Part shown: positions 21,307 to 43,448 of the stretch, piece after piece
How the letters are laid out: the number at the start of each line of letters is the position of its first letter
Numbering within the stretch: the stretch's first letter is position 1
Source: Methanothrix sp.
Lineage (GTDB): Archaea; Halobacteriota; Methanosarcinia; Methanotrichales; Methanotrichaceae
Assembly (NCBI RefSeq): GCF_024518575.1
Contig: NZ_JANIHG010000004.1
Location: 1 to 64,000, forward strand
Length of the DNA stretch: 64,000 nt
Reading direction: 5' to 3'
Program-made: the position numbers and the translations under genes
Notes under the pieces: generated by a model
Database searches by the model: none
What the model was told of the DNA's origin: nothing
Seen by the model: the letters and a program-made list of their open reading frames with translations, nothing else

Positions 21307-23286
21307 TCAGACTATGAGCGGGATGTTCTCCACCGACTCTGGGTTCGCGAGTGCTGAGATATCGCCGACCGGCTTGCCCAGTGCCTTTGCCTTTATGACC
21401 CTGCGCATGATCTTTCCGGATCTTGTCTTCGGCACATCCTTGACGAAGTAGACGATCTCCGGGTACGCGACCGGGCCTAGGACACTCCTGACATGCTTCG
21501 CGATGTCCTTCTTCAGATCCTCGCTCTCCTTCACGCCCTCCTTGAGGATTATGAAGGCGACGATGACCTCGCCCTTGACCTCGTCTGGCTTGCCGATGAC
21601 TGCAGCCTCAGCGACAGCTGGATGCGAAACTGCAGCGGACTCGACCTCGGCATTGCTGATCCTGTGGCCCGCGACCTTGAGAACATCATCGATCCTGCCC
21701 TGGATCCACCAGTAGCCGTCCTTGTCCCTGGTCGCCTTATCGCCCGCCAGGTATGTGCCTGGCTTGATGTCCCAGTACATCTGCCAGTACTCCTTCATGT
21801 ACCTCTCTGGATCCCTGAAGAAGGCGCGGAGCATCGACGGCCAGGGCGTCTTCTGGACGATGTTGCCGCCGTAGCCGAGTGGCACTGAGTTGCCGTCCTC
21901 ATCGTAGATGTCTGTGTTGAATCCAGGCAGCGGGAACGCCACAGAGCCTGGCTTCTCAGGCGTCATGGGGAGCGGAGCGATCACATGGCATCCTGTCTCG
22001 GTCTGCCACCATGTATCGATGATCGGTGCCTGCCCTCCTCCGATGTTGTTCCTGAACCAGACATAGGCCTCGGGGTTGAGCGGCTCGCCCACGGATGCGA
22101 GTATCCTGATCGACTTGAGGTTGTACTTCTTCGGCCACTCATCGCCCGCCTTCATGAACATCCTGATCGCAGTGGGCGCTGTGTAGAATACAGAGACGCC
22201 GTACTCCTCGATGATGGACCACCATCTCCCAATGTCCGGATAATCTGGAGCGCCCTCGTAGAGTATGCTCGTCGCGCCGAGACAGAGCGGGCCGTAGACT
22301 ACGTATGAGTGTCCTGTGATCCAGCCGCAGTCGGCTGTGCACCAGTAGACATCCTCCTCATGGACATCCAGCGCCCATGCGGTGGTGTATGCCGGACCCA
22401 CACAGAATCCACCGTGAGCATGCTCAATGCCCTTCGGCTTTCCAGTTGTGCCTGATGTGTACAGTATGAAGAGCCTGTCCTCTGGATCGAGCTCCTCAGT
22501 GTGGCACTCTGCGGGCTGATCCTTGACGAGATCGTGGTACCAGACATCGCGCCCCTCCTTCATCGGCACATTAAGGCCTACCCTCTTGACCACAACAACC
22601 TTCTCGACGCTCGGGGCGTTCTGGACCGCCTCATCCACGTTCGGCTTGAGCGGGAGCGGCTTGCCGCGCCTGTAGAAGCCATCAGAGGTCACGACGACCT
22701 TTGCCTCAGCATCGGTAACCCTGCTCTGCAGGCCGCCGGCGCTGAATCCGGAGAAGACCACGCTGTGGATCGCTCCGATCTTGGCACAGGCGAGCATCGT
22801 GATCGGAAGCTCCGGTATCATGGGCAGGTAGACGCTGACCCTGTCGCCTTTCTTAACCCCCAGACTCTTCAGGCCATTTGCCATCTTGTTGACAGCCTGG
22901 TAGAGCTGGTAGTATGTTATCGCCTTTGTGTCGCCAACAGGCTCGCCGACGAAGTAGTATGCGACCTTGTTCCTGCGCCAGGACTTCGCGTGCCTGTCAA
23001 CTGCGTTGTACGCGACGTTGCACTTGCCTCCAAGGAACCACTTCGCATATGGCGGGTTCCACTCGAGGATCTGTGTGTACGGCTTGAACCAGTCCGCGTA
23101 TGTCTGGGCCATCTCATCCCAGAAGTCAAGGTAGTTCTGGGAGCACCACTCACGCATCTCCTTCTCTGTCTTGAAGCCCTTCTTCTTCATCCACTGGTAG
23201 GAGTTCGAGTACTCGATTATCCACTGGGGAGTATTGAATATCCTGGTCTCCTCCTGCAGAACAGCAGTCTTTGCAGTCTCAGCCAT
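21307..23286 (-). CDS. acs: acetyl-CoA synthetase (AMP-forming), third of the tandem
   Basis: A 659-residue ANL-superfamily enzyme making acetyl-CoA from acetate, ATP and CoA with release of AMP and pyrophosphate; this is the acetate entry step of Methanothrix methanogenesis. The AMP-binding loop [11 protein letters not shown] is near residue 270, the hinge [14 protein letters not shown] is near residue 535, and the acetylation-type lysine is in [10 protein letters not shown]. The start has GGAGGTATG upstream. It is last in transcription order of three paralogues on the minus strand. Long stretches are base-identical to the middle copy (78 bp at 22245-22322), pointing to recent duplication or gene conversion. 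Confidence 0.96.
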
Positions 23287-23666
23287 TTACATACCTCCAT
23301 TCATCTAGATCTTCATGTGCTTCCGTCCCGTGATGACGCAGGCATGAGCTGAACTCGAGAACTCCTCCTGAGAAGAAGCGCATCAAGAAGTCCTCCGGCG
23401 TGTATATCCTTACCATGCCGCGATCACCTATCAGCACTGGGAGACTCCGGAAACACGATAATTTCATACGTATGTGCTCATTTATAAATCTATCGATATA
23501 CAATTGTTAGTAAAAATTTGTATTAATTATTTTTCATGATACATGTAACAAAAGCGTCCTGTGTAAAAGGGTTTCGCTATCAATAAGCACATATCAGAAG
23601 CGTAAATACACAAGAGTTCTAATAGAAGATAACATCACGTAAAATCAAATAAAATATGTGGACCGC
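23287..23666 (-). promoter_or_regulatory. 380-nt spacer, leader of the third acs gene
   Basis: AT-rich spacer without a gene. Read on the minus strand, ATTTATAAAT near 23480-23492 is a TATA candidate about 195 nt before the ATG, giving a long untranslated leader. A 74-codon open frame covers part of it but shows no family resemblance. A separate promoter for each acs copy would allow independent control. Confidence 0.4.
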
Positions 23667-25655
23667 TCACTTGATGAGCGGTATGGCATCCACAGCATCC
23701 GGGTTCGCAAGCGCGGAGATATCTCCCACAGGGTTGCCCAGTGCCTTCGCCTTTATGACCCTGCGCATGATCTTTCCGGATCTTGTCTTCGGCACATCCT
23801 TGACGAAGTAGACGATCTCCGGATAAGCGACGGGCCCGAGAACGCCCCTGACGTGCTTTGCGAGCTCCTTCTTCAGATCCTCGCTCTCCTGCACGCCCTC
23901 TCTGAGTATCACGAAGGCGACGATGACCTCGCCCTTGACCTCGTCTGGCTTGCCGATGACAGCTGCCTCTGCGACCTTCGGATGCGAGACAAGCGCTGAC
24001 TCGACCTCAGCGTTGCTGATCCTGTGGCCTGCGACCTTGAGAACATCATCGATCCTGCCCTGGATGAAGAAGTATCCGTCCTTGTCCCTTGTCGCCTTAT
24101 CGCCAGCCAGGTACACTCCAGGCCTGATGTCCCAGTACATCTGCCAGTACTCCTTCATGTACCTCTCGGGGTCCCTGAAGAAGGCGCGGAGCATCGACGG
24201 CCAGGGTGTCGTGTTGACGATATTTCCTCCCATGCCGGATGGTACCGGGTTTGCGTCCTCATCGTAGATATCTGTGTTGAATCCGGGCAGCGGGAACGTG
24301 GGCGATCCGGGCTTGAGCGGTGTGATCGGGAGCGGGGAGACCACGAAGCATCCTGTCTCCGTCTGCCACCATGTATCCATGATCGGGCACCTGTCGCCTC
24401 CGAAGTACTTCCTGTACCATACCCATGCCTCGGGGTTGATGGGCTCTCCGACCGAGCCGAGCAGCCTGAGGCTGGAGAGATCGTACTTCTGCGGCCACTG
24501 CTCGCCAGCCTTCATGAACATTCTTATTGCAGTCGGGGCTGTGTATAATACAGACACCTTGTGCTCCTGGATTATGCTGAACCATCTTCCGAAGTCCGGA
24601 TAATCTGGAGCGCCCTCGTAGAGTATGCTCGTCGCGCCGAGACAGAGCGGGCCGTAGACTACGTATGAGTGCCCTGTGATCCATCCGACATCGGCTGTGC
24701 ACCACCAGACATCATTGTCCTTGAGGTCGAAGACCCAGTGGAGCGTCTGCACTGGACCAACACAGTATCCGCCATGGACGTGCTCGATGCCCTTCGGCTT
24801 GCCGGTTGTGCCTGATGTGTACAGTATGAAGAGCCTGTCCTCCGAGTCCGTCTTCTCGGTCTCGCACTCGTCAGGCTGTTTTGCTACGAGCTCGTGATAC
24901 CAGACATCGCGCCCCTCCTTCATCGGCACATCTATTCCAGCTCTCTTGACCACTACAACCTTCTCGACGCTCGGGGCGTTCTGGACCGCCTCATCCACGT
25001 TCGGCTTGAGCGGGAGTGGCTTGCCGCGCCTGTAGAAGCCATCAGTGGTGACGACGACCTTCGACTCAGCATCCAGAACCCTGCTCTGCAGGCCGCCGGC
25101 ACTGAATCCTGAGAAGACCACGCTGTGGATCGCTCCGATCTTTGCGCAGGCGAGCATCGCTATAGGCGTCTCTGGGATCATCGGCATGTATATGCTGACT
25201 CTATCGCCCTTCTTGACCCCTAAACTCTTCAGGCCGTTAGCGAATTTATTTACGGCCTTATAGAGATCAAGGTAAGTTATCTTCTGCACCTTTTGATCCG
25301 TCGGCTCGGGCACGAAGATGTACGCTACCTTATCCTTCTTTGCGCCCTTCGCGTGCCTGTCCACGGCGTTGTATGCGACGTTGCACTTTCCTCCAACAAA
25401 CCATCTCGCATATGGAGGCTTCCACTCGAGGATCTGTGCGTACGGCTCGAACCAGTCCGCATACGTCTTCGCCATCTCGTCCCAGAACTCTATGTAATGC
25501 TGGCCGGTCCAGGCGCGCATCTCCCTCTCAGAGGTGAAGCCCTTCTTCTTCATCCACTGCATGACGTTTGAGTTCTCAGCAAGCTCCTTCGGGGGATGAA
25601 ATACTCTTGTCTCCTCAAGAAGAACCGCAGTTGTAGCAGCTTTTTGCTCAGCCAT
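23667..25655 (-). CDS. acs: acetyl-CoA synthetase (AMP-forming), second of the tandem
   Basis: A 662-residue AMP-forming acetyl-CoA synthetase with the same motifs as its neighbours ([35 protein letters not shown]). It is closest to the copy at 21.3 kb in its middle part (shared [20 protein letters not shown] segment, and long identical DNA), while its N-terminus ([20 protein letters not shown]) matches the copy at 26 kb better. This mosaic pattern suggests gene conversion among the three. GGAGTG precedes the start. Confidence 0.96.
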
Positions 25656-26018
25656 TTTGACACTCCTTAACAGCCATTTTCTGCCTCCAGCCTCCTTTCC
25701 CGGTCATACCACATCTGCCCTCCCAGCAGACAAATCAGGATGTGGAGGATACGAGGCATTATTACGATTGATGATTATCTCTTTCGTTTATAAAGTTAAC
25801 GTTTGAACGTAATTAATGTTTAATAATGATACTAAATGATCATTATGAAATTGTTTCTGTGAACACTTCTATTTTGTATATTACAAAATGTTGATTTGAT
25901 TTTCTGATTTACGCATGATGAAATGCTCTTTAGAGAAATCCCATTATTTACCGAACTCAAACAAACGGTCAAGAAATAGGTATTTTATTAAATAAAAATA
26001 ATAAAGCCGTGGGACGCT
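25656..26018 (-). promoter_or_regulatory. 363-nt spacer, leader of the second acs gene
   Basis: AT-rich, no gene. TTTATAAA at 25788-25795 (minus-strand reading) is a TATA candidate about 135 nt upstream of the ATG, implying a leader of roughly 110 nt. The 3' side (25800-26018) is very AT-rich with scattered T-runs that could end the upstream acs transcript. Confidence 0.4.
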
Positions 26019-28001
26019 TCACACGATCTTGGGTATAGCGTCCACAGCCTCTGGATTTGCGAGAGTGGAGATGTCCCCGACAGGCTGGCCCATCGCCTTG
26101 GCCCTTATGACCCTGCGCATGATCTTTCCGGATCTTGTCTTTGGCACGTCCTTGACGAAGTATATCGCCTCGGGCGTGGCCACTGGCCCCAACGTCTCCC
26201 TGATATGCTTTGCGATATCTTTCTTCAGTTCCTCGCTCTCCGGAACGCCCTCTCTCAGTATGGCGAATACTATTATGACCTCGCCCTTGACCGGATCCGG
26301 CTTGCCGATGACAGCTGCCTCTGCAACCTTCGGATGTGAAACTGCAGCGGACTCGACCTCCGAGTTCCCGATTCTGTGGCCCGCGACCTTTATGACATCA
26401 TCGATCCTGCCCTGGATCCAGAAGTAGCCATCCTCATCCCTTCGTCCCTTATCGCCCGCCAGGTATGTGCCAGGCCTGACGTTCCAGTATGTCTCCCAGT
26501 ATGTCCTGAAGTACCTCTGCGGATCCTTGTAGAAATCTCTGAGCATCGACGGGTACGGCTCCAGTATGACGATGTTTCCTCCCTCTCCTGGAGGCACAGG
26601 CTTTCCAGCCTCATCCCATACGTCCATGCTGTATCCCGGCAGAGCGAACGTGCAGCTTCCAGGCTTGAGCGGCGTGATCGGCAATGGAGAGCCTATGAAT
26701 GTGCCGGTCTCGGTCTGCCACCATGTATCCATTATCTGGAGCTCATCCCTTCCGATGTTCTTCCTGTACCAGACCCATGCCTCGGGATTGATCGGCTCGC
26801 CCACGGTGCCCAGCAGCCTTAAACTCTTCAGGTTGTACTTCGCAGGCCACTGCTCGCCGGCCCTCATGAACATCCTTATTGCGGTAGGCGCTGTGTAGAG
26901 CACGTTGACGCCGAACTCCTCTATTATCGACCACCATCTTCCGAAGTCCGGATAATCTGGAGAGCCCTCGTAGATTATGCTCGTCGCGCCGAGGGAGAGC
27001 GGGCCATATACGATATACGAGTGGCCAGTGACCCATCCGATATCTGCGGTGCACCACCATACATCATCTTCCTTGAGATCGAAGACCCAGTGGAGAGTCT
27101 GCGGAACACCAACGCAGTACCCGCCGTGCGCATGCTCGATGCCCTTCGGCTTTCCTGTTGTTCCCGATGTGTACAGGATATACAGTCTGTGCTCTGGATC
27201 GAGCTGCTCCGTCTCGCACTCAGCAGGCTGATCCTTGACGAGATCATGCCACCATATATCCCTGTCTTTATTCCACGGGATATCCTGGCCGGTCCTCTTG
27301 TAGACGATCTGATGCTCTATTGTTGGAGCCTCCTGAATCCCCTCATCAGCCTGCTTCTTCAACTCAACGATCTTTCCGCGCCTCCAGAAGCCATCCGTTG
27401 TGATCGATATCTTCGACTCCGCATCCATAACCCTGTCAGCATAAGCCTTTGAGCTGAATCCCGAGAAGACGACGCTGTGGATCGCGCCGATCTTTGCGCA
27501 TGCGAGCATCGCTATCGGCAGCTCCGGGATCATCGGCATGTAAATGCTGACTCTGTCTCCCTTCTTAATCCCTAGACTCTTCAGGCCGTTTGCGAGCTTG
27601 TTGACCTCCCTGTATAGATCCCCATAGGTGAACTTCCTTACGTCGCCAAGAGGCTCTCCCACTGCGATATAAGCTACCTTATTCCTCCTCCAGGACTTAG
27701 CATGCCTGTCCACCGCGTTGTAGGCCATGTTGCACTTGCCGCCAACGAACCACTTGGCATACGGGGGCTTCCAGTCGAGAACCTGCTTGTAGGGCTCAAA
27801 CCAGTCCGCATACGTCTTTGCCATCTCGTCCCAGAACTCCACGTAGTTCTTCGAGCACCACTCGCGCATCTCCTTCTCTGTCTTGAAGCCCTTCTTCTTC
27901 ATCCACTGCATGACATTTGAGTTCTCGACCAGCTCCTTCGGGGGATGGAACAGCCTCCTCTCCTCGAGAAGGACCGCGGTCTTTGCGGTTTCCTCGGCCA
28001 T
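26019..28001 (-). CDS. acs: acetyl-CoA synthetase (AMP-forming), first of the tandem
   Basis: A 660-residue AMP-forming acetyl-CoA synthetase, first in transcription order and the most diverged of the three: its region around residues 195-245 reads [20 protein letters not shown] where the others share [14 protein letters not shown]. The catalytic motifs are intact ([35 protein letters not shown]). The ribosome site AGGAGG is 9 nt before the ATG. Several acs genes are a hallmark of Methanothrix, which lacks the acetate kinase/phosphotransacetylase route used by Methanosarcina. Confidence 0.96.
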
Positions 28002-28970
28002 TTTTATAAACCTCCTTTCATCTCCATCCGCCGCGTGGTCTGAGGGATAGGGCGGCAGATGTTAATGATAGATTATTGTAATGATTAATAAAGCTATTGG
28101 TGCACCGTCCTATTTGCACATCATTTCCACGACAATATAATAAATAATAATTATAGTTCCCATCTCAAACCGCACTCAGAGAGGTTAATCATATTTGTAT
28201 GATTTATCCATAAAATTCAGTTTTTGGTTAAATATTCAAAACGTATTTTCATAATGCGGATGTGACCCATATCTGCAGATGCCATGAACCCCAGTGACGG
28301 ATTGACCAGAACCAAAGATAGTCTCTCGTTTTTATTAAAACCGCGCCAAAGAAAGCATTTCGCAATTCCAATATGATACCATTTTGGTAAGAAAAATAAA
28401 GGTTTTATTCAATTTATGTGCTACTGAGCACCACATAAATTATTCCTACTGGGCAGTGGTCTTTATGCCTTAAGGTGGATAATTTGGCTGGCTCATCTCC
28501 GCAGATTATCGGAGATCCGGATGGAGCCGGGTTTTCGAAATTTGCGGAGTCCCTTTTCTGTCACACTCTGCCAATCCGCTAGTGGATGAACCACCTGGTT
28601 TTGCTCCATTTGTCATCGGTTAGGGTTTCTATGCAATATAATATGATGAATATTTAACAATTTTCCTGCCATCGTATGTATGCTGCCTGATAAGATCGAT
28701 AGCAATCGTCAAGAATCTTAATTTCAAGATAATACCTATGTAAAAATTATTAATCAATTCTTGCGTCGAACTGCATTAACCGATGACACATGGGTTTTGC
28801 TCTATATTGCTGGTAGATAAGCAGGCAGAAGATCCCTCCAGGAAGAAAGTCACGCACGACTTGGTCTGCTGTGCAGGTCTCCTTCCGGGAATTCACAGCA
28901 TGCCATCTGCGCAACAGCGCTTTGCACTGCAGGAAAGCCTTTAAGCCCATCCGCTCATCTCTGGGGTTGA
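28002..28970. other. 969-nt divergent intergenic region with hairpins
   Basis: No gene supported. A TATA-like CTTTATTAAT near 28080-28092 (minus strand) would serve acs. A 9-bp perfect hairpin ATTTATGTG/CACATAAAT lies at 28412-28440, and a second, ATCTCCG/CGGAGAT at 28495-28516, is enclosed by GGCTC/GAGCC. CTTTAAG near 28939-28945 is a plausible TATA for the MoxR gene about 27 nt on. The length is unusual for this gene-dense window, so a small RNA is possible. Confidence 0.4.
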
Positions 28971-30239
28971 ATGGAAGCTGCTAGCCTGCTCTCTAAGATC
29001 ACCTCAATTAAAGATGCCCTGGATGAGCTGCGCCTTCACGTCGGAGTCAAGGATCTCTCCATAGGATCGGAGAGGTTCAACGCGCAGCTGATCTTCTGCA
29101 TGGCAAACGCCTGCCTGAGAAACAGGGCGGTCCTCCTGTACGGCGGCATGGGCGCGAACAAGACCACCCTTGTTAACATCCTTGGAAGCGCTTTCATGAA
29201 CATGAGTTTTGACGATGTTGAGAACCTGATGGTCTCCGGCCACCCAGAGCAGACCGAGGAGAAGATCATCGGATTCATAGATCCGAGACAGTGGATGCAG
29301 CCATCTGGCACTGAAATCAGAGTGCTCTGGACGCCCTGGGCGAGGTCCAGGTGGAAGCTCATAAACGAGATCAACAGATTCCCTGCCGGAAAGCAAAACC
29401 TCTTCCTTGAGATAATCAAGAAGCGAAAGCTGACCTATGCTGGCCAGGTGCTGGAGCCTGGAGATACCTGCTACTTCGCCACGATGAACCCCGAGTTCAG
29501 CTCCACGTACCCGGTGGATGAGGCTCTTATGGACAGAATATCGGCATGCGTTCCTGCGATACAGCCCGGCCTTCTCGCGGGCCTGAACCTCGCGGAGCGC
29601 ACTGAGGAGGTGAGGGATCTTGCGGAGCAGCTCCCTAGGTTCTCAAGGGATGAGTTCGATGCATTGCCTCGTGCTGTTGATGAGATAATGCTTGATCCTC
29701 TCACAGAGCTCTGCATCGTCTCGCTGGTCCGCGACTTCACGCTCTGCGAGCGCGCGCCATGCTTCGACAAGACCCAGCTATCCGGCAGAAACCCTAACCA
29801 TGGTCTTTGCACAGGCTGCCATTACTTCAACAATCCAGAGGTGTGCTGCTGGCAGATCGATGAGGGGCTCTCGGACAGGGTCCGTCAGGATCTCAGGTCG
29901 TTCACGAAGGCTGTCTCGTTCGTCTCAGGCCTCAAGAAGGATAACAAGATAGAGGTCCTGAGGGCGGTTGCACCTTACGTGATATGGCACAGGGTCACAC
30001 CTAACCGCTCGATGCTCGAGCGACCTCCATACTACGGCACAAGGCGCCTCGAGTATATCTCCGATCTCGTGCAGAAGAGCATAGACAGGACGGTCAACGA
30101 GCGCGGCGAGATGAACATGATATTCTCGAGGGCTATCGATGGAGAGATCTCCTTTGACAGAGCCATAAAGGAGCTCTCTGAGTACGACGATCCGATCGCG
30201 AGGCTGGATTACATCCCCATGTTGGAGAGGATGGCGTAA
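28971..30239 (+). CDS. MoxR-like AAA+ ATPase with altered Walker motifs and inserted cysteine cluster
   Basis: A 422-residue AAA+ protein of the MoxR/AAA_5 type. The P-loop reads GGMGANKTT (residues 58-66), with Asn63 in place of the invariant Gly before K64. The Walker B region reads KLINEINR, with Asn132 where Asp is usual but Glu133 kept. Sensor 1 is in FATMNP and the arginine finger candidate is R189. A cysteine set (C259, C264, C280, C283, C292, C293) follows the ATPase core and looks like a metal or Fe-S site. The gene starts a three-gene operon with a GXGXG protein and a VWA protein. MoxR-VWA pairs elsewhere mature metalloenzymes; the substrate here is unknown. Confidence 0.85.
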   Translation: MEAASLLSKITSIKDALDELRLHVGVKDLSIGSERFNAQLIFCMANACLRNRAVLLYGGMGANKTTLVNILGSAFMNMSFDDVENLMVSGHPEQTEEKIIGFIDPRQWMQPSGTEIRVLWTPWARSRWKLINEINRFPAGKQNLFLEIIKKRKLTYAGQVLEPGDTCYFATMNPEFSSTYPVDEALMDRISACVPAIQPGLLAGLNLAERTEEVRDLAEQLPRFSRDEFDALPRAVDEIMLDPLTELCIVSLVRDFTLCERAPCFDKTQLSGRNPNHGLCTGCHYFNNPEVCCWQIDEGLSDRVRQDLRSFTKAVSFVSGLKKDNKIEVLRAVAPYVIWHRVTPNRSMLERPPYYGTRRLEYISDLVQKSIDRTVNERGEMNMIFSRAIDGEISFDRAIKELSEYDDPIARLDYIPMLERMA

Positions 30240-30973
30240 TGGGCCTTAAGAACCTGATGGAGAGCGCATACGGAGGAAAGACCCGGCACAGGAGGCTTGA
30301 CTCTGAGAAGGGTGAGAGGGTCATAAGCCTCGAGGATCTAGCCGACAGGGTCGGAGACCATCCGAAGAAGGAGGAGGTCGCAGAGCTCCTCAACGATGAG
30401 ATAATCCCAAGGATGATATCAAGCATACCGCAGGGGAAGAAGGAGTCCCTGATATGGGGGTATATCACGAGCATCGCTGCAGAGAGGTCCGCGTCTTATG
30501 TGGTTGTCAGGCCGATGGATTTCGCAGGGCTTGAGCTCTCTGGTGGAATGCTAATCCTGATGGGAGATGAAAAGAAGAGACCATCACATGTGGGCGAGAG
30601 GATGCGCTCAGGCATGATCCGACTTGGCGAGGCCGGGGATTACCTCGGCCAGGGCATGAGCGGTGGCGGGATAGTCGCGTCCTCCTGCGGGACCTACGCA
30701 TTCCGCGACATGCGCGGCGGCTGGGGCGTGATCCTGGGAGATGCCGGGAGCTTCATAGGTGTCAACAACTCCGGCGGCAGGATACTTGTTAAGGGCAACG
30801 CAGGCGAGAGGGCTGGCTGGCTGATGCGCTCCGGGCGCCTCACAGTGCTGGGAGACGCCGGAGACTACCTGGGGATCCTTGCGAAGGGCGGCGTTATAAA
30901 GATCCGCGGTGATGCCGGAAGGAATGTCGGCTGGAGGGCTGGCGGTGTCAGGATCGAGATCATCAGAGGATGA
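30239..30973 (+). CDS. GXGXG (glutamate synthase C-domain-like) beta-helix protein
   Basis: A 244-residue protein. Residues 1-85 are helical and charged. Residues about 95-244 form a right-handed beta-helix of repeated G-x-x-G-D-A-G units (GEAGDYLG, GDAGSFIG, GNAGERAG, GDAGDYLG, GDAGRNVG), the fold of the glutamate synthase alpha C-terminal domain and of formylmethanofuran dehydrogenase subunit C. No glutaminase or flavin domain is attached. Its ATG overlaps the MoxR stop (TAATG), and the VWA gene begins one base after its stop, so the three are made together. It may be the scaffold or substrate of the ATPase; that is inference. Confidence 0.85.
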   Translation: MGLKNLMESAYGGKTRHRRLDSEKGERVISLEDLADRVGDHPKKEEVAELLNDEIIPRMISSIPQGKKESLIWGYITSIAAERSASYVVVRPMDFAGLELSGGMLILMGDEKKRPSHVGERMRSGMIRLGEAGDYLGQGMSGGGIVASSCGTYAFRDMRGGWGVILGDAGSFIGVNNSGGRILVKGNAGERAGWLMRSGRLTVLGDAGDYLGILAKGGVIKIRGDAGRNVGWRAGGVRIEIIRG

Positions 30974-30974
30974 G

Positions 30975-32420
30975 ATGCTCAGAATATGGGAGGCGGCGCG
31001 GAGCGAATGGCACTACCCCCAGCTTCCCCGGCCTGTGATATCCTCTGAGAGCTCAGGCGTCTTTCCATTCGATAACTACAGGATATCCATCACAGAGTAC
31101 GATCTGCAGGACTCGTTATATATGGAGAGCCTCTTCGAGCACATCATCCTTCATTACATTTTCTGCCCGAGGTCGCTTGAGGTTGCTGGTGAGCTCGCCC
31201 TAGCAGCGCTGAGGGGCATCAAAAGGAATGACGTGAAACTTGCGAGGACGATCGTGAATATATTCAGTGATATAGTTGTAGACTCATTCAGGCTGGAGCG
31301 GAGCGAGTCTGATGAGCTCAAGGTGGTTCGCCTCTGGAGGCGCATAGCGGAGGGGGTTGAATCGGATCTCGATGTTGCGGTCATATCTTTTCTCGAGAGC
31401 TACTGGTCGGTGGATCTGTGCGGCGCTACCGAGACGCCCGAGTCCAGACTTCTGCTGCAGGTCTTCTCTCCTGGAGTCCGGGATAGATCCCTCTGGAAGA
31501 GACAGTGCCAGCAGATGGCCATGGTACTCTCTCCACTTTCCCCGGGCTCTCTTGGAAGGGACGAGATCAGATCTCTTGAGATCCTGCGCGGGAATGCGAG
31601 ATCTGCGCCGCTTTCAGGTCTCGCCTCCGAGCTTGAGCCAGTTGAGTACATGAGGTGCCTGGAAGTGCTTGGCATCAGGGGAGATCTCAAGCGCTGGTAC
31701 CGCGACCAGGGGTACAGGATAGAGATCGCGGCGAGCAGGTCCAGCAGGAGCGATACATACCCGACAGGCACATCGAGATGGCGCTTCGATGATTCTCCGA
31801 GCGATCTGGATGTCAACTACTCACTCAGCATGAGCCCCAGGCTGGTTCCGGGAGTGACCACTTACAGGAGGGATCAAGAGTCCTGCAGCATGGCGCCTGG
31901 CCGTTCTGAGGTCCCGGATCTTCTTGTTGTTCTAGACAGCAGCAGGTCCATGGATGGCCACAGGAGGGGATCCAGGACATTCTATGCGACGCTGGCCGCG
32001 TTCAAGGCTGCGCAGTTCGCCTACGAGCAGGGCGCTGAGCTCGCTGCGATAAACTTCAGCGAGAGCTTTCTGGTTCAGCCGTGGTGCAGGGACCTCGATG
32101 CCGTGGAGGATGTTCTGGTCGAGTACCTCTGCGGGAGAACGAACATACCAGGGAGCAGGATGCTGGAGCTCGTGAAGGAGAGGAGGGGATGCCTGATACT
32201 CTGCATAACAGACACAGGTATACAGAACCTCTACACACAGTGGGATTATCTGAAGGAGGCTGCCTCACTCGGCAGGTTTGTGCTCTTCTGCATAGATGAG
32301 AAGGGGAAGGACAGATACGTCCTGGAAGCCCTCGGCTCTCTCGGCAGGGTTTATCACATAAACACGCCCGAAGACCTCATATCTCTCGTCGTGGAGACCG
32401 CAGAGGATGCGTATGGGTAG
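30975..32420 (+). CDS. von Willebrand factor A domain protein (CoxE/NorD-like) of the MoxR operon
   Basis: A 481-residue protein. The first 300 residues are mostly helical without a known domain. A VWA domain occupies about 315-480, with the metal-binding MIDAS motif LDSSRS (D321 by count) plus the later Thr and Asp (GRTN, ITDTG). Such proteins work with MoxR ATPases, the VWA domain gripping the target through Mg2+. The start at 30975 follows the previous stop by one base; the upstream extension of the frame overlaps the GXGXG gene and is not needed. Confidence 0.85.
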   Translation: MLRIWEAARSEWHYPQLPRPVISSESSGVFPFDNYRISITEYDLQDSLYMESLFEHIILHYIFCPRSLEVAGELALAALRGIKRNDVKLARTIVNIFSDIVVDSFRLERSESDELKVVRLWRRIAEGVESDLDVAVISFLESYWSVDLCGATETPESRLLLQVFSPGVRDRSLWKRQCQQMAMVLSPLSPGSLGRDEIRSLEILRGNARSAPLSGLASELEPVEYMRCLEVLGIRGDLKRWYRDQGYRIEIAASRSSRSDTYPTGTSRWRFDDSPSDLDVNYSLSMSPRLVPGVTTYRRDQESCSMAPGRSEVPDLLVVLDSSRSMDGHRRGSRTFYATLAAFKAAQFAYEQGAELAAINFSESFLVQPWCRDLDAVEDVLVEYLCGRTNIPGSRMLELVKERRGCLILCITDTGIQNLYTQWDYLKEAASLGRFVLFCIDEKGKDRYVLEALGSLGRVYHINTPEDLISLVVETAEDAYG

Positions 32421-32681: not shown

Positions 32682-33638
32682 ATGCAGATGTTCTCCAACG
32701 GGGCGATATCGATGGACAATGTTCGGCAGCTTTCTGTAAAGCCAAAGATGAGCGTGGATGAGCTGGTGAGGGGCATGGAGGGCTGCGGCTTCGGCGCACG
32801 CAGGCTCGCACGTGCCGCCGAGATCTATCAGGAGATGGTTGAGGGGGATTACAGGAAGTTCTTCACCCTGGCAGGCGCGATGGTGCCTGCTGGCATGAGG
32901 GATCTGATCTCCGATCTTATAAGGAGAGGATTGATTGATGTGCTCGTCACGACCGGAGCGAATCTGGTGCACGATATTGTTGAATCATTCAGCCATCACC
33001 GCCTTGGATATGTTGAGGCGGACGACTCGGAGCTGAGGAGATCGGGGGTATCGAGGATATATGATGTGTACATAACAGACGATGACTTCGTTAGATTCGA
33101 GGATCTGGTCCAGAATCTGCTTCCTGACAGGGAGGACCCCCTCTCCGGAAGGGAGCTGCTGGCGGAGATCGGGTCGAGGATAGAGGACAGAAGATCTATA
33201 CTGAGAAGCGCCAGCGATTGTGGCGTGCCTGTGTTCTGCCCAGCGATAACGGACTCGATGATAGGGCTTCAGGCATGGCTCCACAGGCAGACAAAAAAAC
33301 TGAACATAGATCTTATCGATGATGTGAGGGAGATCGTCGATATATGCTACGAATCAGATAGAGCTGGGATACTCATTGTCGGTGGGGGAGTTCCCAAGAA
33401 CTTCGCCCTGCAGTCGATGCTTGTGACCCCGAACAGCTTCAGGCTTGCGATCCAGCTCACAACAGACCATCCCGAAGGAGGCGGGCTCTCGGGCGCGACG
33501 CTCTCTGAGGCGATATCCTGGGGGAAGATAGATCCTGAGGCAAAGCACGTCACTGTCTACGGGGACGCGACCATAACTCTTCCGGTTCTTGTTGCATCTG
33601 TCATCACCAGGGTCGAGGGGAGAGGTGCACGCGATTAG
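32682..33638 (+). CDS. deoxyhypusine synthase-family protein
   Basis: A 318-residue homologue of deoxyhypusine synthase, which moves an aminobutyl group from spermidine to the aIF5A lysine. The NAD-fold start (TTGANLVHDIVE), the central GVPVFCPAITDSMIG and the catalytic-lysine motif GGGVPKN are kept, followed by TDHPEGGGLSGA. Archaea often have two such genes, and some members act as homospermidine synthase instead. An ATG at 32712 is an alternative start; 32682 is preferred for the TATA-like element just upstream. Confidence 0.88.
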   Translation: MQMFSNGAISMDNVRQLSVKPKMSVDELVRGMEGCGFGARRLARAAEIYQEMVEGDYRKFFTLAGAMVPAGMRDLISDLIRRGLIDVLVTTGANLVHDIVESFSHHRLGYVEADDSELRRSGVSRIYDVYITDDDFVRFEDLVQNLLPDREDPLSGRELLAEIGSRIEDRRSILRSASDCGVPVFCPAITDSMIGLQAWLHRQTKKLNIDLIDDVREIVDICYESDRAGILIVGGGVPKNFALQSMLVTPNSFRLAIQLTTDHPEGGGLSGATLSEAISWGKIDPEAKHVTVYGDATITLPVLVASVITRVEGRGARD

Positions 33639-33967: not shown

Positions 33968-34405
33968 TCAAGCCGCTTTGGTTGCGCAGCTCTCAACCTC
34001 CTCAACATAGATCTCCCCTTCCTCTGTGACGTATATCTCAACGCTCCTCTCGATGACTCTTCTTCTCGTGAGGTTCGGGGCGATCTCCTTCAATTCCGCC
34101 AGGATGTCTATGGAGTTCACCGGCAGCTTCAATCCCCGCGCGTCGGCCTCTCTGAATATGATCCCGGGCAGGGAGAAGAGGTCTGTGCCCTCAGGGATCC
34201 TGACGGCAACAGGCGCCTGGATCATCTTCCACTGTTTTAGCGTCGCAAGCGCGCGCTCGATGTTCTGCATCGCCCTTCTCTCCAGTATGCTGACATTCGA
34301 TCTGGTCGTGCCAATGATCGCGGCCACCTCCTCCTGCGACCTCCCGCATCTTCTGAGACGGAGGACCTGGATCTGTCTCTCAGTGAGAAATCCGTGTGAG
34401 TTCAT
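33968..34405 (-). CDS. Tfx-family transcriptional regulator
   Basis: A 145-residue protein. Residues 6-50 are a sigma-70 region 4-like helix-turn-helix (FLTERQIQVLRLRRCGRSQE, then IGTTRSNVSILERRA). A C-terminal domain typical of the Tfx family follows (TDLFSLPGIIFREADARGLK). In Methanothermobacter, Tfx binds next to the promoter of a molybdenum formylmethanofuran dehydrogenase operon. Here the gene overlaps tupC by 26 nt on the same strand, linking it to tungstate uptake, and it could control both transport and the fwd operon. Confidence 0.88.
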   Translation of the reverse strand: MNSHGFLTERQIQVLRLRRCGRSQEEVAAIIGTTRSNVSILERRAMQNIERALATLKQWKMIQAPVAVRIPEGTDLFSLPGIIFREADARGLKLPVNSIDILAELKEIAPNLTRRRVIERSVEIYVTEEGEIYVEEVESCATKAA

Positions 34406-35141
34406 GTATGAACCTCCTGTCCAGATGCCTCAACATCCCCGCATGCAGGAACTCCCTCACTTCATCAGAATCAGAGCCCATCAGGAGATCTGGGGATCCG
34501 GATGATACCACCCTGCCGTCCATGATGATCACAATCCTGTCAGCAAGGCGCACCGCCTGGGGCAGGTCGTGGGTCGATATGACAACTGTCATCCCCCTCA
34601 TCTTCGCGCTTGATATCAGATCCTCTATGACATAAGATGTTCTGGGATCGAGATTGGCGGTCGGCTCATCGAGAAGCAGTATCTCCGGGGAGATCGCGAG
34701 AGCTCTTGCAAGTGCCACCCTCTGCATCTCACCTCCTGAGAGCATCCTTGCGGGCCTTCTCTCATATCCCTCGAGGCCGACATCAGAGAGGGCTGCTTTG
34801 ACCCTCTTATCGATCTCATCTTTCGACAAACGGCGTATCCTGAGGCCGTATGCCACGTTATCGTAAACCGTGCCCCTGAGCATGAGAGGCCGCTGGAAGA
34901 CCACGCCGATCCGGCGCCTGGCTGCCAGCTTCTCGCTCTCGTTCTTCGGGGCCTCACCCCTGAAGAGCACGCGACCCTTTGAGGGAACCTCGATGAGATC
35001 CATCACCCTCAGAAGCGTTGTCTTTCCGGCTCCTGTTGGGCCGATAATCCCCAGCGTCTCGCCGGTCCTGACCTCAATGTTTATGTCCTTCAATATCTGC
35101 CTCCCGTTCCTCTCAACGCTCACATCTTCAAGCTGGATCAT
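34380..35141 (-). CDS. tupC: tungstate ABC transporter, ATP-binding subunit
   Basis: A 253-residue ABC ATPase with Walker A GPTGAGKTT (near residue 35), signature LSGGEMQRVALA, Walker B LLLDEPTANLD and switch His in STHDLPQA. It powers the transporter whose permease and binding protein are encoded directly upstream. The assignment to tungstate rests mainly on the TupA protein. It starts one base after the tupB stop. Confidence 0.9.
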   Translation of the reverse strand: MIQLEDVSVERNGRQILKDINIEVRTGETLGIIGPTGAGKTTLLRVMDLIEVPSKGRVLFRGEAPKNESEKLAARRRIGVVFQRPLMLRGTVYDNVAYGLRIRRLSKDEIDKRVKAALSDVGLEGYERRPARMLSGGEMQRVALARALAISPEILLLDEPTANLDPRTSYVIEDLISSAKMRGMTVVISTHDLPQAVRLADRIVIIMDGRVVSSGSPDLLMGSDSDEVREFLHAGMLRHLDRRFIHELTRISH

Positions 35142-35142
35142 C

Positions 35143-35829
35143 CTACCACTCCTGGAGCCTGCCGACCACTGTGTTCACCACCAGGGCTATCGAGATCAGA
35201 ATCAGGCCGAGGGCTATTGACATCTCCAGGTTCCCCATGGAAGTCTCGAGGGCGATCGCAGTCGTGAGAACTCTTGTATAGCCCCTTATGTTTCCCCCGA
35301 TCATCATCGCGACGCCCACCTCTGACAGGGCTCTCCCGAAGCCGAGAAGCAGAGCCGCAAGCACAGGTCCCCTCGCCTCCGCTATAACCGTCCGGATCGT
35401 CTGAAATCTGTCAGCTCCAAGCGATATGGCTGTGTCCCTGAGATCGTCACTTACATTACTCAGAGCTGATATCGTGAGCCCGAGGATGACAGGTGTTATG
35501 AGCACTGACTGGCCGATGATCATTCCATAGGGAGTGTAGAGAAGTCCACAGCTTCCGAGCGGACCCTCCCTTGATATGAGCAGGAATACGAAGAGTCCGA
35601 CGGTCACAGTGGGGATGCTGTAAAGAGTCTGGATGAGATTTATCAAACCACTCCTCCCCGGGAAGTGATGGAAATATATTAGACTTCCAAGAGGCACATT
35701 GATCAGAGATGCGATGGTGACCGAGGAGAGTGCGATTAAAAATGATCGGAGCGTGACCTCTATCACCTCCGGGTTCAGTTCGAGTATCAGCTCGATCGCT
35801 CTGATGAATCCTCTTGTTATCTCATCCAA
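35143..35829 (-). CDS. tupB: tungstate ABC transporter, permease
   Basis: A 228-residue permease with five or six membrane helices and the ABC-coupling EAA-like loop (EARGPVLAALLLGFGRALSE). TupB-type permeases are single-subunit dimers. It overlaps tupA by 8 nt. Part of the tupABC-tfx operon on the minus strand. Confidence 0.9.
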   Translation of the reverse strand: MDEITRGFIRAIELILELNPEVIEVTLRSFLIALSSVTIASLINVPLGSLIYFHHFPGRSGLINLIQTLYSIPTVTVGLFVFLLISREGPLGSCGLLYTPYGMIIGQSVLITPVILGLTISALSNVSDDLRDTAISLGADRFQTIRTVIAEARGPVLAALLLGFGRALSEVGVAMMIGGNIRGYTRVLTTAIALETSMGNLEMSIALGLILISIALVVNTVVGRLQEW

Positions 35830-36700
35830 CTCTGCTCACCATCTCTCCCGGACATTCCGCTTCATTGCATCCGATCTCCGTGCAGCGACCAGCGGCTGGA
35901 TAGAACAGCGCTCTCCCATACATTCCGTAGTTGGCTATGATCTCCTGTCCCTCCTGGGAAAGAAGAAACTCCAAGAACCTCTCAGCAAGATCCAGATGTT
36001 TCGATGCAGAGACCGGTATTGCAGCGTATACATTTAGCAGCTCCTCGCTCTCGGTCACCAGAGGCACGAGGCTGAGGTTGCCCGCGAATGCCATGTATGT
36101 CGACATATCCGTGAGCGTGTAGGCTCTCTTCTCATCTGCCATGATCAGCGTCGCGCCCATACCCTGGCCTGACTCCAGGTACCATCTACCTGCAGGCTCG
36201 ATGCCCGCGCTCTTCCAGAGCTGCTTCTCACGCGCATCTGTCCCGGAGCTGTCGCCGCGGGAGACAAACCGCACATCTGGATCTCTCTCGCCAGCATCTG
36301 CAATCATCCTGAACGCCTCGGATGCGTTCCTGCCCTTTATCCCTGCAGGATCATCAGCAGGGCCGACGATGTAGAAGTAGTTGTACGCAAAGCATCTCCT
36401 CTCAAGGCCGTAGCCTCCGGCTATGAACTCCCTCTCCCTCTCAACATCATGAACGAGGAGGAGATCCACATCCCCGCGCCTCCCCTGCTCCAGCGCGAAT
36501 CCTGTCCCCCCAGAGATGATGTCGACCTCCACCCCATACTCCTCCTCGAACCGGCTCTCGAGGGCATCGAGAAGCTTTGTATCATAAAGGCTCGTTGTCG
36601 TCGCGACTCTCAGCCTTTCATCCGCTGTCCCGCCCGCGGAGAGCAGGCAGATCAGGAATGTTACAAAAAGCAGCTGGACATAACAACTCAGTGATACCAT
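35822..36700 (-). CDS. tupA: tungstate-binding protein of ABC transporter
   Basis: A 292-residue extracytoplasmic binding protein. Residues 1-25 form a signal or anchor helix. The mature part begins ERLRVATTTSLYDTKLLDAL, with the TTTS motif that distinguishes TupA tungstate-binding proteins, and continues with RGDSSGTD and MADEKRAYTLTD. The start at 36700 is chosen for its GGAGTGGAG ribosome site; the frame is open to 36805 but without one. A short Cys-containing tail (CTEIGCNEAEC) extends past the usual end. Confidence 0.9.
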   Translation of the reverse strand: MVSLSCYVQLLFVTFLICLLSAGGTADERLRVATTTSLYDTKLLDALESRFEEEYGVEVDIISGGTGFALEQGRRGDVDLLLVHDVEREREFIAGGYGLERRCFAYNYFYIVGPADDPAGIKGRNASEAFRMIADAGERDPDVRFVSRGDSSGTDAREKQLWKSAGIEPAGRWYLESGQGMGATLIMADEKRAYTLTDMSTYMAFAGNLSLVPLVTESEELLNVYAAIPVSASKHLDLAERFLEFLLSQEGQEIIANYGMYGRALFYPAAGRCTEIGCNEAECPGEMVSRVG

Positions 36701-37202
36701 GCTCCACTCCTGTAAACGATAATGCTGACAACGCCGCATGTATGTAAGCGTTTGGGTGTCAGAACGCATCTGCATATTCCCGAATAACTGAGAGAAGAGG
36801 CACATTTAACATAACGTTTGTATCGAGCTCCCCCTTGCTCAGGCGAAAGACCTGCTGTGTTGGATAAGTCCTAAAATTCGCAACCGAAAGGCCGTTAGGG
36901 GGTAAAGATGGAAATTAGCCAAGAATCGATGCCTAGAGATGAAATTCTGAAAAGGTGATCCAACACAGCTGAAAGACCACAAAACAAGTCTGACGCTTCT
37001 ACCTGGTGGCGTGCATGTGTGCCCATCAGCCACGGGATCCTACGTATCCGCACGATATTCGCTCTTAACCTATGATAAATTGTCCATGGGGGCATTGGTC
37101 CTCCTGTGCGCTCCTGGCGAATGAATGAGCTCTCCTATCAACCGATTAGAATGAACTCGCTGAATAGACCAGAGCGACGATATTTTGTGGAAGTTCGACC
37201 CG
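36701..37202. other. 502-nt spacer upstream of tupA, holding a MITE
   Basis: Contains the 118-bp element at 36853-36970 (separate entry). The part next to tupA should hold its promoter, but I see no outstanding TATA box. Nothing recognisable in 36979-37202. Confidence 0.5.
36853..36970. repeat. MITE-like element, sixth copy, different core (118 bp)
   Basis: The ends TGCTGTGTTGGAT and ATCCAACACAGCT are inverted repeats nearly identical to those of the 116-bp family, but the interior (for example AACCGAAAGGCCGTTAGG) is unrelated. It is flanked by perfect 8-bp direct repeats GAAAGACC at 36845-36852 and 36971-36978. Same ends and same duplication length imply the same transposase. Confidence 0.85.
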
Positions 37203-42058: not shown

Positions 42059-43426
42059 CTATTTTGTGGTTCGCGCAAAAGCGCTTCTCAGCCGCTCCTC
42101 GATCGCCTCAATGCTCAGCTCCTCCTGAGAGCCGCTTGTCATGTTCCTGAGAACGAGCTTCCCGGAGTCGAGCTCTCTTCTTCCGACGATTATGACGTGC
42201 TCGGCGTTGATCGAAGATGCGGACTTCAGCTGAGCGCTCAGGGAGCGTCCCATGACATCGATGATTACAGGGGAGACATTCCTGAGACGCTTTGCGATCC
42301 GAATAGCATCAACCTTCACATCAGGCGTGAAGGCCAGAACCACAGGGGGTATTGGCGGATCAACCTCGCCAACAACCTCCATTATCCTGTCGAATCCGAG
42401 TCCAAAGCCTGTGGAGAACGTCTCCGATCCTCCAAACAGACTTGCAAGCTCGTAAGATCCGCCGCCGCATATCTGGTTCTGGGCTCCGAGACCTGAGGCG
42501 TATATCTCGAAGACAGTTCCGGTGTAGTATTCAAGACCGCGCACTATCTCGAAGTCGACAGTCGCATCGACACCGTATGCATCGAGAAGCTCCAGCATCT
42601 CCCTGAAATCGCTCAGTTTCATCTCCGACTCAGGAGATCTGCCGGACCTCGCAGAGGCGCGTGCGCCCTCTCTCCTGCTCTCTCCGCATGCCGCCTCCAG
42701 AGAAGAATGCGCGCTCCCTGCGCCCTCTGTTGAGATCTCGACGGATGATAGGGCAGCGCTGAGCTCCTCGGCTCTGTCAAGCGCTCCCTTTCCCTTAAGG
42801 CTGATCAGCTCCATGATGCCCAGATCCTCCGCCCCTATGCTCTGGAGCAGCTCCCTGAGCGCATCCCTTTCCTTCTTGTCGATGAGCCTCATTATGCTCT
42901 GCCTGTGTGCCTCAGGGACCTTCTTCAGCATCGATCTAATCAGTCCAAGATACCCGATGTGGATATCCCCTCTGATGCCGACTGCTCTCAGGACCTCGTC
43001 GGCCATCGCTATGACCTCGGCCTCTGAGTCAGAGCGCCTTCCTCCGATGAGCTCGCAGCCGAGCTGCCAGAACTCCCTGAACCTGCCCTTCTGTGGCCTC
43101 TCATACCTGAAACAGTTGGCGAAGTAGTACAGCCTTAACGGCTTCGGGGCGCTGTGAAGCTCGCCGACATACATCCTCATAACAGGTGCGGTGAGCTCGG
43201 GCCTGAGGGCGATATCCCTGCCGCCCTTGTCCTTGAAGCTGTATATCTCCTCTATGACTCCCTCACCTGATTTGAGCGTGAAGAGCTCGAGGTGCTCAAA
43301 AGTCGGAGTCACGACCTCACGGTACCCCCACCGCTCCATCACATCTATCATCTTTTCCCTGACTGCACGCCTTCTGTGGGCCTCCTCAGGCGGGAAGTCC
43401 CTGGTCCCTCTGGGTCTCTGGATCAT
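42059..43426 (-). CDS. hisS: histidyl-tRNA synthetase
   Basis: A 455-residue class II synthetase. Motif 1 is near residue 45, motif 2 is FRYERPQKGRFREFWQLGCE, the histidine-binding region holds the family signature GGGSYELASLFGG, and motif 3 is GFGLGFDRI. A low-complexity insert of about 45 residues (STEGAGSAHSSLEAACGESR region) interrupts the catalytic part, making the protein slightly long. The start at ATG 43426 (GTG at 43429 also possible) is about 25 nt from a TATA box, so it is probably leaderless. Confidence 0.95.
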   Translation of the reverse strand: MIQRPRGTRDFPPEEAHRRRAVREKMIDVMERWGYREVVTPTFEHLELFTLKSGEGVIEEIYSFKDKGGRDIALRPELTAPVMRMYVGELHSAPKPLRLYYFANCFRYERPQKGRFREFWQLGCELIGGRRSDSEAEVIAMADEVLRAVGIRGDIHIGYLGLIRSMLKKVPEAHRQSIMRLIDKKERDALRELLQSIGAEDLGIMELISLKGKGALDRAEELSAALSSVEISTEGAGSAHSSLEAACGESRREGARASARSGRSPESEMKLSDFREMLELLDAYGVDATVDFEIVRGLEYYTGTVFEIYASGLGAQNQICGGGSYELASLFGGSETFSTGFGLGFDRIMEVVGEVDPPIPPVVLAFTPDVKVDAIRIAKRLRNVSPVIIDVMGRSLSAQLKSASSINAEHVIIVGRRELDSGKLVLRNMTSGSQEELSIEAIEERLRSAFARTTK

Positions 43427-43448
43427 CACCCACGAATTCGCAAAAATG

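Follow-up and report, generated by a model that had tools for sequence, protein, structure and literature searches.

Introduction

Couples of a MoxR-class AAA+ ATPase and a VWA protein activate enzymes, nitric oxide reductase and Rubisco among them, although to our knowledge few of their clients have been identified, and archaeal ones hardly at all. In the described couples NorQ-NorD, CbbQ-CbbO and RavA-ViaA, the ATPase is accompanied by a larger protein composed of an N-terminal domain and a C-terminal VWA domain with a MIDAS, and the pair CoxD-CoxE is used in the maturation of a metalloenzyme, carbon monoxide dehydrogenase. The mechanism is established for NorQD, in which a finger of the VWA protein enters the pore of the AAA+ ring and touches the helix-2 insert, the MIDAS is thought to engage an acidic surface of the client, and rotation powered by ATP puts strain on the linker, so that the client opens and metal can be inserted (PMC9976466, PMC13036017). 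In addition, MoxR-vWA-centric ternary systems have been recognized, in which the third component is VMAP, iSTAND, FtsH or a beta-propeller (Kaur et al. 2020, PMC7159879).

The locus described here lies in a 64,000-nucleotide stretch of a Methanothrix sp. contig (NZ_JANIHG010000004.1; family Methanotrichaceae), which is referred to as the window. It consists of three genes, hereafter the trio, encoding an AAA+ ATPase, a GXGXG beta-helix protein and a VWA protein. The ATPase and the VWA protein correspond in composition to those of NorQ-NorD, CbbQ-CbbO and RavA-ViaA, whereas the trio differs from these couples in its additional FwdC-like GXGXG component, in a four-cysteine insert of the ATPase, in Walker A and Walker B changes within the window's family, and in having no client gene alongside. 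With the ternary systems of Kaur et al. it shares the combination of MoxR, VWA and a conserved third protein, but this protein is a GXGXG beta-helix, and effectors and defence-library matches are absent. MoxR-VWA couples and ternary systems were known already, but a GXGXG protein is not among the third components that Kaur et al. describe; a preliminary description of the locus had taken it for a candidate undescribed maturation system, and in the literature searched no paper was found to name both MoxR and GXGXG. It is proposed here, with an even chance of being right, that the trio makes up a MoxR/VWA-type remodelling machine, similar to NorQD and CbbQO but with three components, in which the beta-helix would be the client-facing part.

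Gene organization and selection

The three genes are intact and closely coupled (Table 1), since the stop codon TAA of the ATPase gene and the start codon ATG of the GXGXG gene share one base (TAATG, 30237-30241), and a single nucleotide separates the GXGXG stop codon from the ATG of the VWA gene. These boundaries agree exactly with the preliminary description, and its naming of the products as an AAA+ ATPase, a GXGXG beta-helix protein resembling FwdC, and a VWA protein with a MIDAS is borne out by Pfam, alignment and fold. Not contained in that description, which was made from sequence only, were the four-cysteine insert, the altered Walker motifs and the promoter-like element. In three congeneric species, a near-identical form of the latter, GAAAGCCTTTAAGCCC, precedes the AAA+ start codon; in the window it matches once, against 0.07 matches expected. 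No RNA families were found in the trio region with Rfam.

Table 1. Coordinates of the trio and of its sequence features in the window
Feature	Position	Strand	Remarks
Promoter-like element GAAAGCCTTTAAGCCC	28933..28948	+	23-38 bases 5' of the AAA+ start codon; putatively BRE/TATA-like
MoxR-class AAA+ ATPase gene (P0001)	28971..30239	+	422 aa
Altered Walker A, GGMGANKT	29142..29165	+	N before K
HPEQTEEK signature	29241..29264	+	Lies between the two Walker motifs, at the expected place of the helix-2 insert
Altered Walker B, LINE	29358..29369	+	D to N
Four-cysteine insert of the ATPase (C259, C280, C283-H284, C293)	29745..29849	+	Candidate metal site
GXGXG beta-helix protein gene (P0002)	30239..30973	+	244 aa
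FwdC-like beta-helix repeats	30554..30934	+	TIGR03122 match under cut-off
VWA-domain protein gene (P0003)	30975..32420	+	481 aa, counted from ATG
Beta-hairpin before the VWA core	31746..31892	+	Candidate pore-inserting finger
MIDAS residues D321-x-S323-x-S325, T389, D413	31935..32213	+	

Compared with congeners, the three genes have dN/dS values of 0.07-0.19, which is indicative of strong purifying selection, and the genome of the window contains a single copy of the trio. Both observations bear on whether the trio is a conflict or defence system of the MoxR-vWA ternary type (PMC7159879), with which it has the same logic of MoxR, VWA and a third protein. Besides the selection and the single copy, that reading has against it the lack of matches to any PADLOC family, the failure to find plasmid or viral relatives, and a third component that is not VMAP, iSTAND, FtsH or a beta-propeller and comes with no effector domains, so that a defence function appears very improbable.

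Several other genes of the window were noted. Upstream, on the reverse strand (21307-28001), are three tandem genes for AMP-forming acetate-CoA ligases of 659, 662 and 660 aa, an array typical of acetoclastic Methanothrix. Directly 3' of the trio, a deoxyhypusine-synthase-like gene (32682-33638, +) is followed by a reverse-strand region (33968-36805) encoding an HTH regulator and then an ABC transporter set (ATPase, permease and substrate-binding protein) of tungstate/molybdate (Tup-like) appearance. Farther away, a histidyl-tRNA synthetase gene (42059-43429, -) encodes a Ser/Arg/Ala-rich insert in the middle of the protein.

The AAA+ protein

P0001 is a MoxR-class protein by profile, lid domain, fold and descent, with ATP hydrolysis uncertain. 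In Pfam it scores above the cut-off for AAA_5 and slightly under it for AAA_3. Its AF2 model (pLDDT 77.8) has the MoxR protein 2r44 as best PDB match in Foldseek (E 2.8e-11), followed by RavA, and the same two proteins are returned by PDB profile matches. The MoxR/Mg-chelatase-type lid, AAA_lid_2, was matched by all 11 AAA+ members examined from a second family, which we infer to be Archaeoglobaceae and which is treated below. Moreover, a quick tree unites the trio AAA+ proteins from the two families to the exclusion of generic MoxR proteins (SH-aLRT 96).

The nucleotide site sets the two families apart. Walker A reads GANKT in 20/20 members from the window's family versus GSGKT in 12/12 second-family homologues, and Walker B reads NE versus DE in the same sets; the second family shows the canonical form of both motifs, with DE in Walker B, that is expected of a MoxR AAA+ protein, whereas the window's family departs from it, and ATP hydrolysis in the latter is uncertain as a result. 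The lysine, threonine and glutamate of these motifs are nevertheless retained, together with the sensor-1 asparagine (N173) and the arginine finger (D188-R189), which are invariant in the AAA+ alignment, so that nucleotide binding is likely.

Two further features distinguish the trio ATPases. The HPEQTEEK signature is kept in both families and is missing from 14/14 generic MoxR proteins. The cysteines C259, C280, C283 and C293, as well as His284, are invariant in 31 AAA+ sequences spanning both families; because the insert that carries them is a low-confidence loop in the AF2 model, metal binding is put forward as a proposal.

The VWA protein

Although Pfam detects it weakly (E 0.07), the VWA domain of P0003 is established by alignment of the MIDAS and by the predicted fold. 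The complete MIDAS (DxSxS-T-D) is invariant in 34 VWA sequences from both families, and the N-terminal domain is likewise homologous between them (hhalign E 6.8e-8). The structural model (pLDDT 82) comprises an N-terminal helical domain, a hairpin and then the VWA fold, and in the PDB it matches best the NorD VWA domain of the NorQ-NorD complex (E 2.6e-6); numerous other VWA domains score nearly as well. The strands of the hairpin (258-268 and 297-306), modelled at lower confidence, may be the counterpart of the NorD finger. By analogy, the AAA+ and VWA proteins of the trio appear to possess the elements needed for a NorQD-like mechanism.

CoxD-CoxE is also a MoxR-VWA pair, but P0003 matches Pfam VWA_CoxE only with E 0.15, below the cut-off, and no carbon monoxide dehydrogenase or molybdenum hydroxylase genes were recognized beside the trio in the window or in the loci compared. 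The trio is accordingly not assigned to CoxD-CoxE, with which no sequence test groups it. A pattern scan for close VWA relatives, which also covered phyla other than the window's own, returned only two Methanothrix-like loci, and a Methanothrix locus is 88% identical to that of the window. A weak VWA match in G050, from another Methanosarcinia family, was dismissed as a generic VWA gene near a transposase and without partner genes.

The GXGXG beta-helix protein

P0002 scores above the Pfam cut-off for GXGXG, and the named family closest to it is FwdC, a subunit of formylmethanofuran dehydrogenase. The match to the FwdC profile TIGR03122 reaches 74.8 bits against a cut-off of 130.65 and covers profile positions 62-197 of 260, and the profile of the second-family GXGXG proteins matches FwdC in the PDB with E 1.8e-27. 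P0002 shares the GXGXG beta-helix repeats with FwdC but has a different N-terminal segment, and the trio GXGXG proteins form clades of their own outside FwdC. Given the partial match under the cut-off, the separate clade and a true FwdC at another place of this genome (G000:C34), P0002 is not FwdC itself. Nor is it a stand-alone glutamate synthase subunit, the outcome that the preliminary description had named as fatal to its proposal: GltB-type matches are weaker than those to FwdC, and the other GXGXG proteins of the genome, presumed to be of the glutamate-synthase type, branch apart.

Between the families, no match was found for the N-terminal segments of the Methanotrichaceae and presumed Archaeoglobaceae trio GXGXG proteins, and their beta-helices match each other no better than they match FwdC. 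The two GXGXG partners may therefore be separate recruitments.

Distribution in Methanotrichaceae

Among 50 Methanotrichaceae genomes, the VWA protein is nearly full length in 39, present as fragments only in 6 and missing from 5. The order AAA-GXGXG-VWA is constant across genera in the loci examined, while the flanks vary, and the Acs, deoxyhypusine-synthase and Tup genes are neighbours of the trio only within the window's genus. Genomes of the family without the VWA gene are also without a full-length AAA+ gene and without the trio GXGXG gene. As the genes adjoin, some of these absences could be explained by contig gaps, which does not apply to two genomes with decayed remnants inside contigs: G035 retains a deleted VWA gene alone (L170 7557-8232), and G085 an AAA+ piece followed by the end of the VWA gene (L171 5681-6143). 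From the joint absence of all three genes and from these two remnants, it follows that the trio is lost as a unit in Methanotrichaceae.

Suggested links to formylmethanofuran dehydrogenase, acetate and tungsten

The kinship with FwdC invites a reading in which the trio serves solely to assemble formylmethanofuran dehydrogenase (Fwd/Fmd): its GXGXG protein would mimic FwdC until the MoxR-VWA motor exchanges it for the real subunit. It is in keeping with this that FwdC was detected in every relative searched. The same survey, proposed in the preliminary description as a co-occurrence check, included genomes without the trio and gave no link: FwdC occurs without the trio in Methanosarcinia relatives (e.g. 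G003, G006 and G010), in G328 and in G067, a Methanotrichaceae genome that lacks all three trio genes and has a full-length FwdC, and the trio is therefore not generally required. Furthermore, the trio GXGXG clades fall outside FwdC, and in neither family did the trio loci show a conserved neighbour resembling fwd. An assembly factor for Fwd/Fmd is accordingly quite unlikely.

A tungsten or molybdenum enzyme as client, the suggestion of the preliminary description, is left without support by this occurrence of Fwd in trio-less genomes and by the restriction of the Acs and Tup adjacency to a single genus, for which reason a link of the trio to Acs and Tup by neighbourhood was also rejected. In the second family, the presence of AMP-forming acetyl-CoA synthetase likewise fails to follow that of the trio: the strongest Acs class is found both in genera that have the trio (g73, g75) and in others that do not (g77, g40).

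A rearranged trio in a second family

Searching with an AAA+ profile brought up remote homologues (E 1e-17 to 1e-23) in a single further family of the phylum, the presumed Archaeoglobaceae, in which 3/13 genera have full-length homologues; among the 345-394 genomes sampled from the phylum, no third family contains a clear AAA+ homologue. The operon order there is AAA-VWA-GXGXG, often with a second GXGXG gene. One genus has the VWA-GXGXG pair apart from the AAA+ gene, and its genomes still hold all three genes, with the exception of an incomplete one (G450) without a full AAA+ match. That the parts recur in another order is the most telling indication of a joint function of the three proteins.

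The neighbourhood search suggested in the preliminary description thus gave a clear answer within the phylum, as the trio is kept across genera and rearranged in the second family. That three unrelated genes came to lie together by chance has nothing in its favour except that the individual families are common; with linkage conserved amid unrelated flanks, the order rearranged and the genes lost jointly, this idea was rejected and retains next to no probability.

The second-family operons bear on a further alternative, namely that the GXGXG protein is a scaffold or subunit of the client itself and that the MoxR-VWA pair, encoded beside this substrate, is devoted to activating or assembling it. 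MoxR-VWA genes often adjoin those of their clients, as is often so for CbbQO and NorQD, the beta-helices of FwdC and GltB are structural parts of large redox enzymes, and several of these operons have two GXGXG paralogues after the VWA gene. Against it, no catalytic gene is kept beside the trio in both families, and a lone beta-helix has no known activity. We regard the GXGXG protein as client to be unlikely, though with an appreciable share of the probability.

Some additional genes were observed around the second-family loci. A small lipoprotein-like gene adjoins the split-off AAA+ gene in genus g73 (L090 9210-9743, +; also L089, L093, L094 and L096). In two genera, the AAA+ gene is preceded at a distance of about 10-40 bases by a radical-SAM gene (L086 9298-10209, -; also L090, L094 and L096), for which no specific maturase model scored above the cut-off. 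Finally, genome G442 encodes an AAA+ protein with a similar cysteine pattern and without a VWA or GXGXG neighbour (L148 6003-7178, +); its contig may be a contaminant, and its placement is unsure because of a long branch.

Proposed mechanism

If the trio is a remodelling machine with the beta-helix as its client-facing part, the AAA+ protein would form a nucleotide-driven ring, which the VWA protein would plug with its finger while offering the metal ion of its MIDAS to an acidic residue of the client, presumably a redox or metal enzyme. The beta-helix is best placed on the client side because such subunits are structural parts of large redox enzymes, and it is probably an adaptor, which could plausibly dock the machine onto a multi-subunit redox enzyme; it might otherwise serve as a placeholder for a beta-helix subunit while the enzyme assembles.

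A more specific formulation can be offered tentatively, at somewhat less than even chances: the trio would represent a new class of MoxR-VWA system, with the FwdC-like beta-helix as the client-recognition module for a redox enzyme of Methanotrichaceae and some Archaeoglobaceae, a methanogen motor in which both Walker sites were altered and then fixed, and a four-cysteine metal site on the ring.

Significance

How MoxR-VWA machines choose their clients becomes more accessible to study through a conserved third component that is folded like an Fwd subunit. The changes at the Walker sites, in turn, prompt one to ask if a MoxR ring could function while hydrolysing hardly any ATP or none. The natural absences and the split operons make the trio testable by comparison, and most sampled members of Methanotrichaceae, a family with a central part in making methane from acetate, have kept it.
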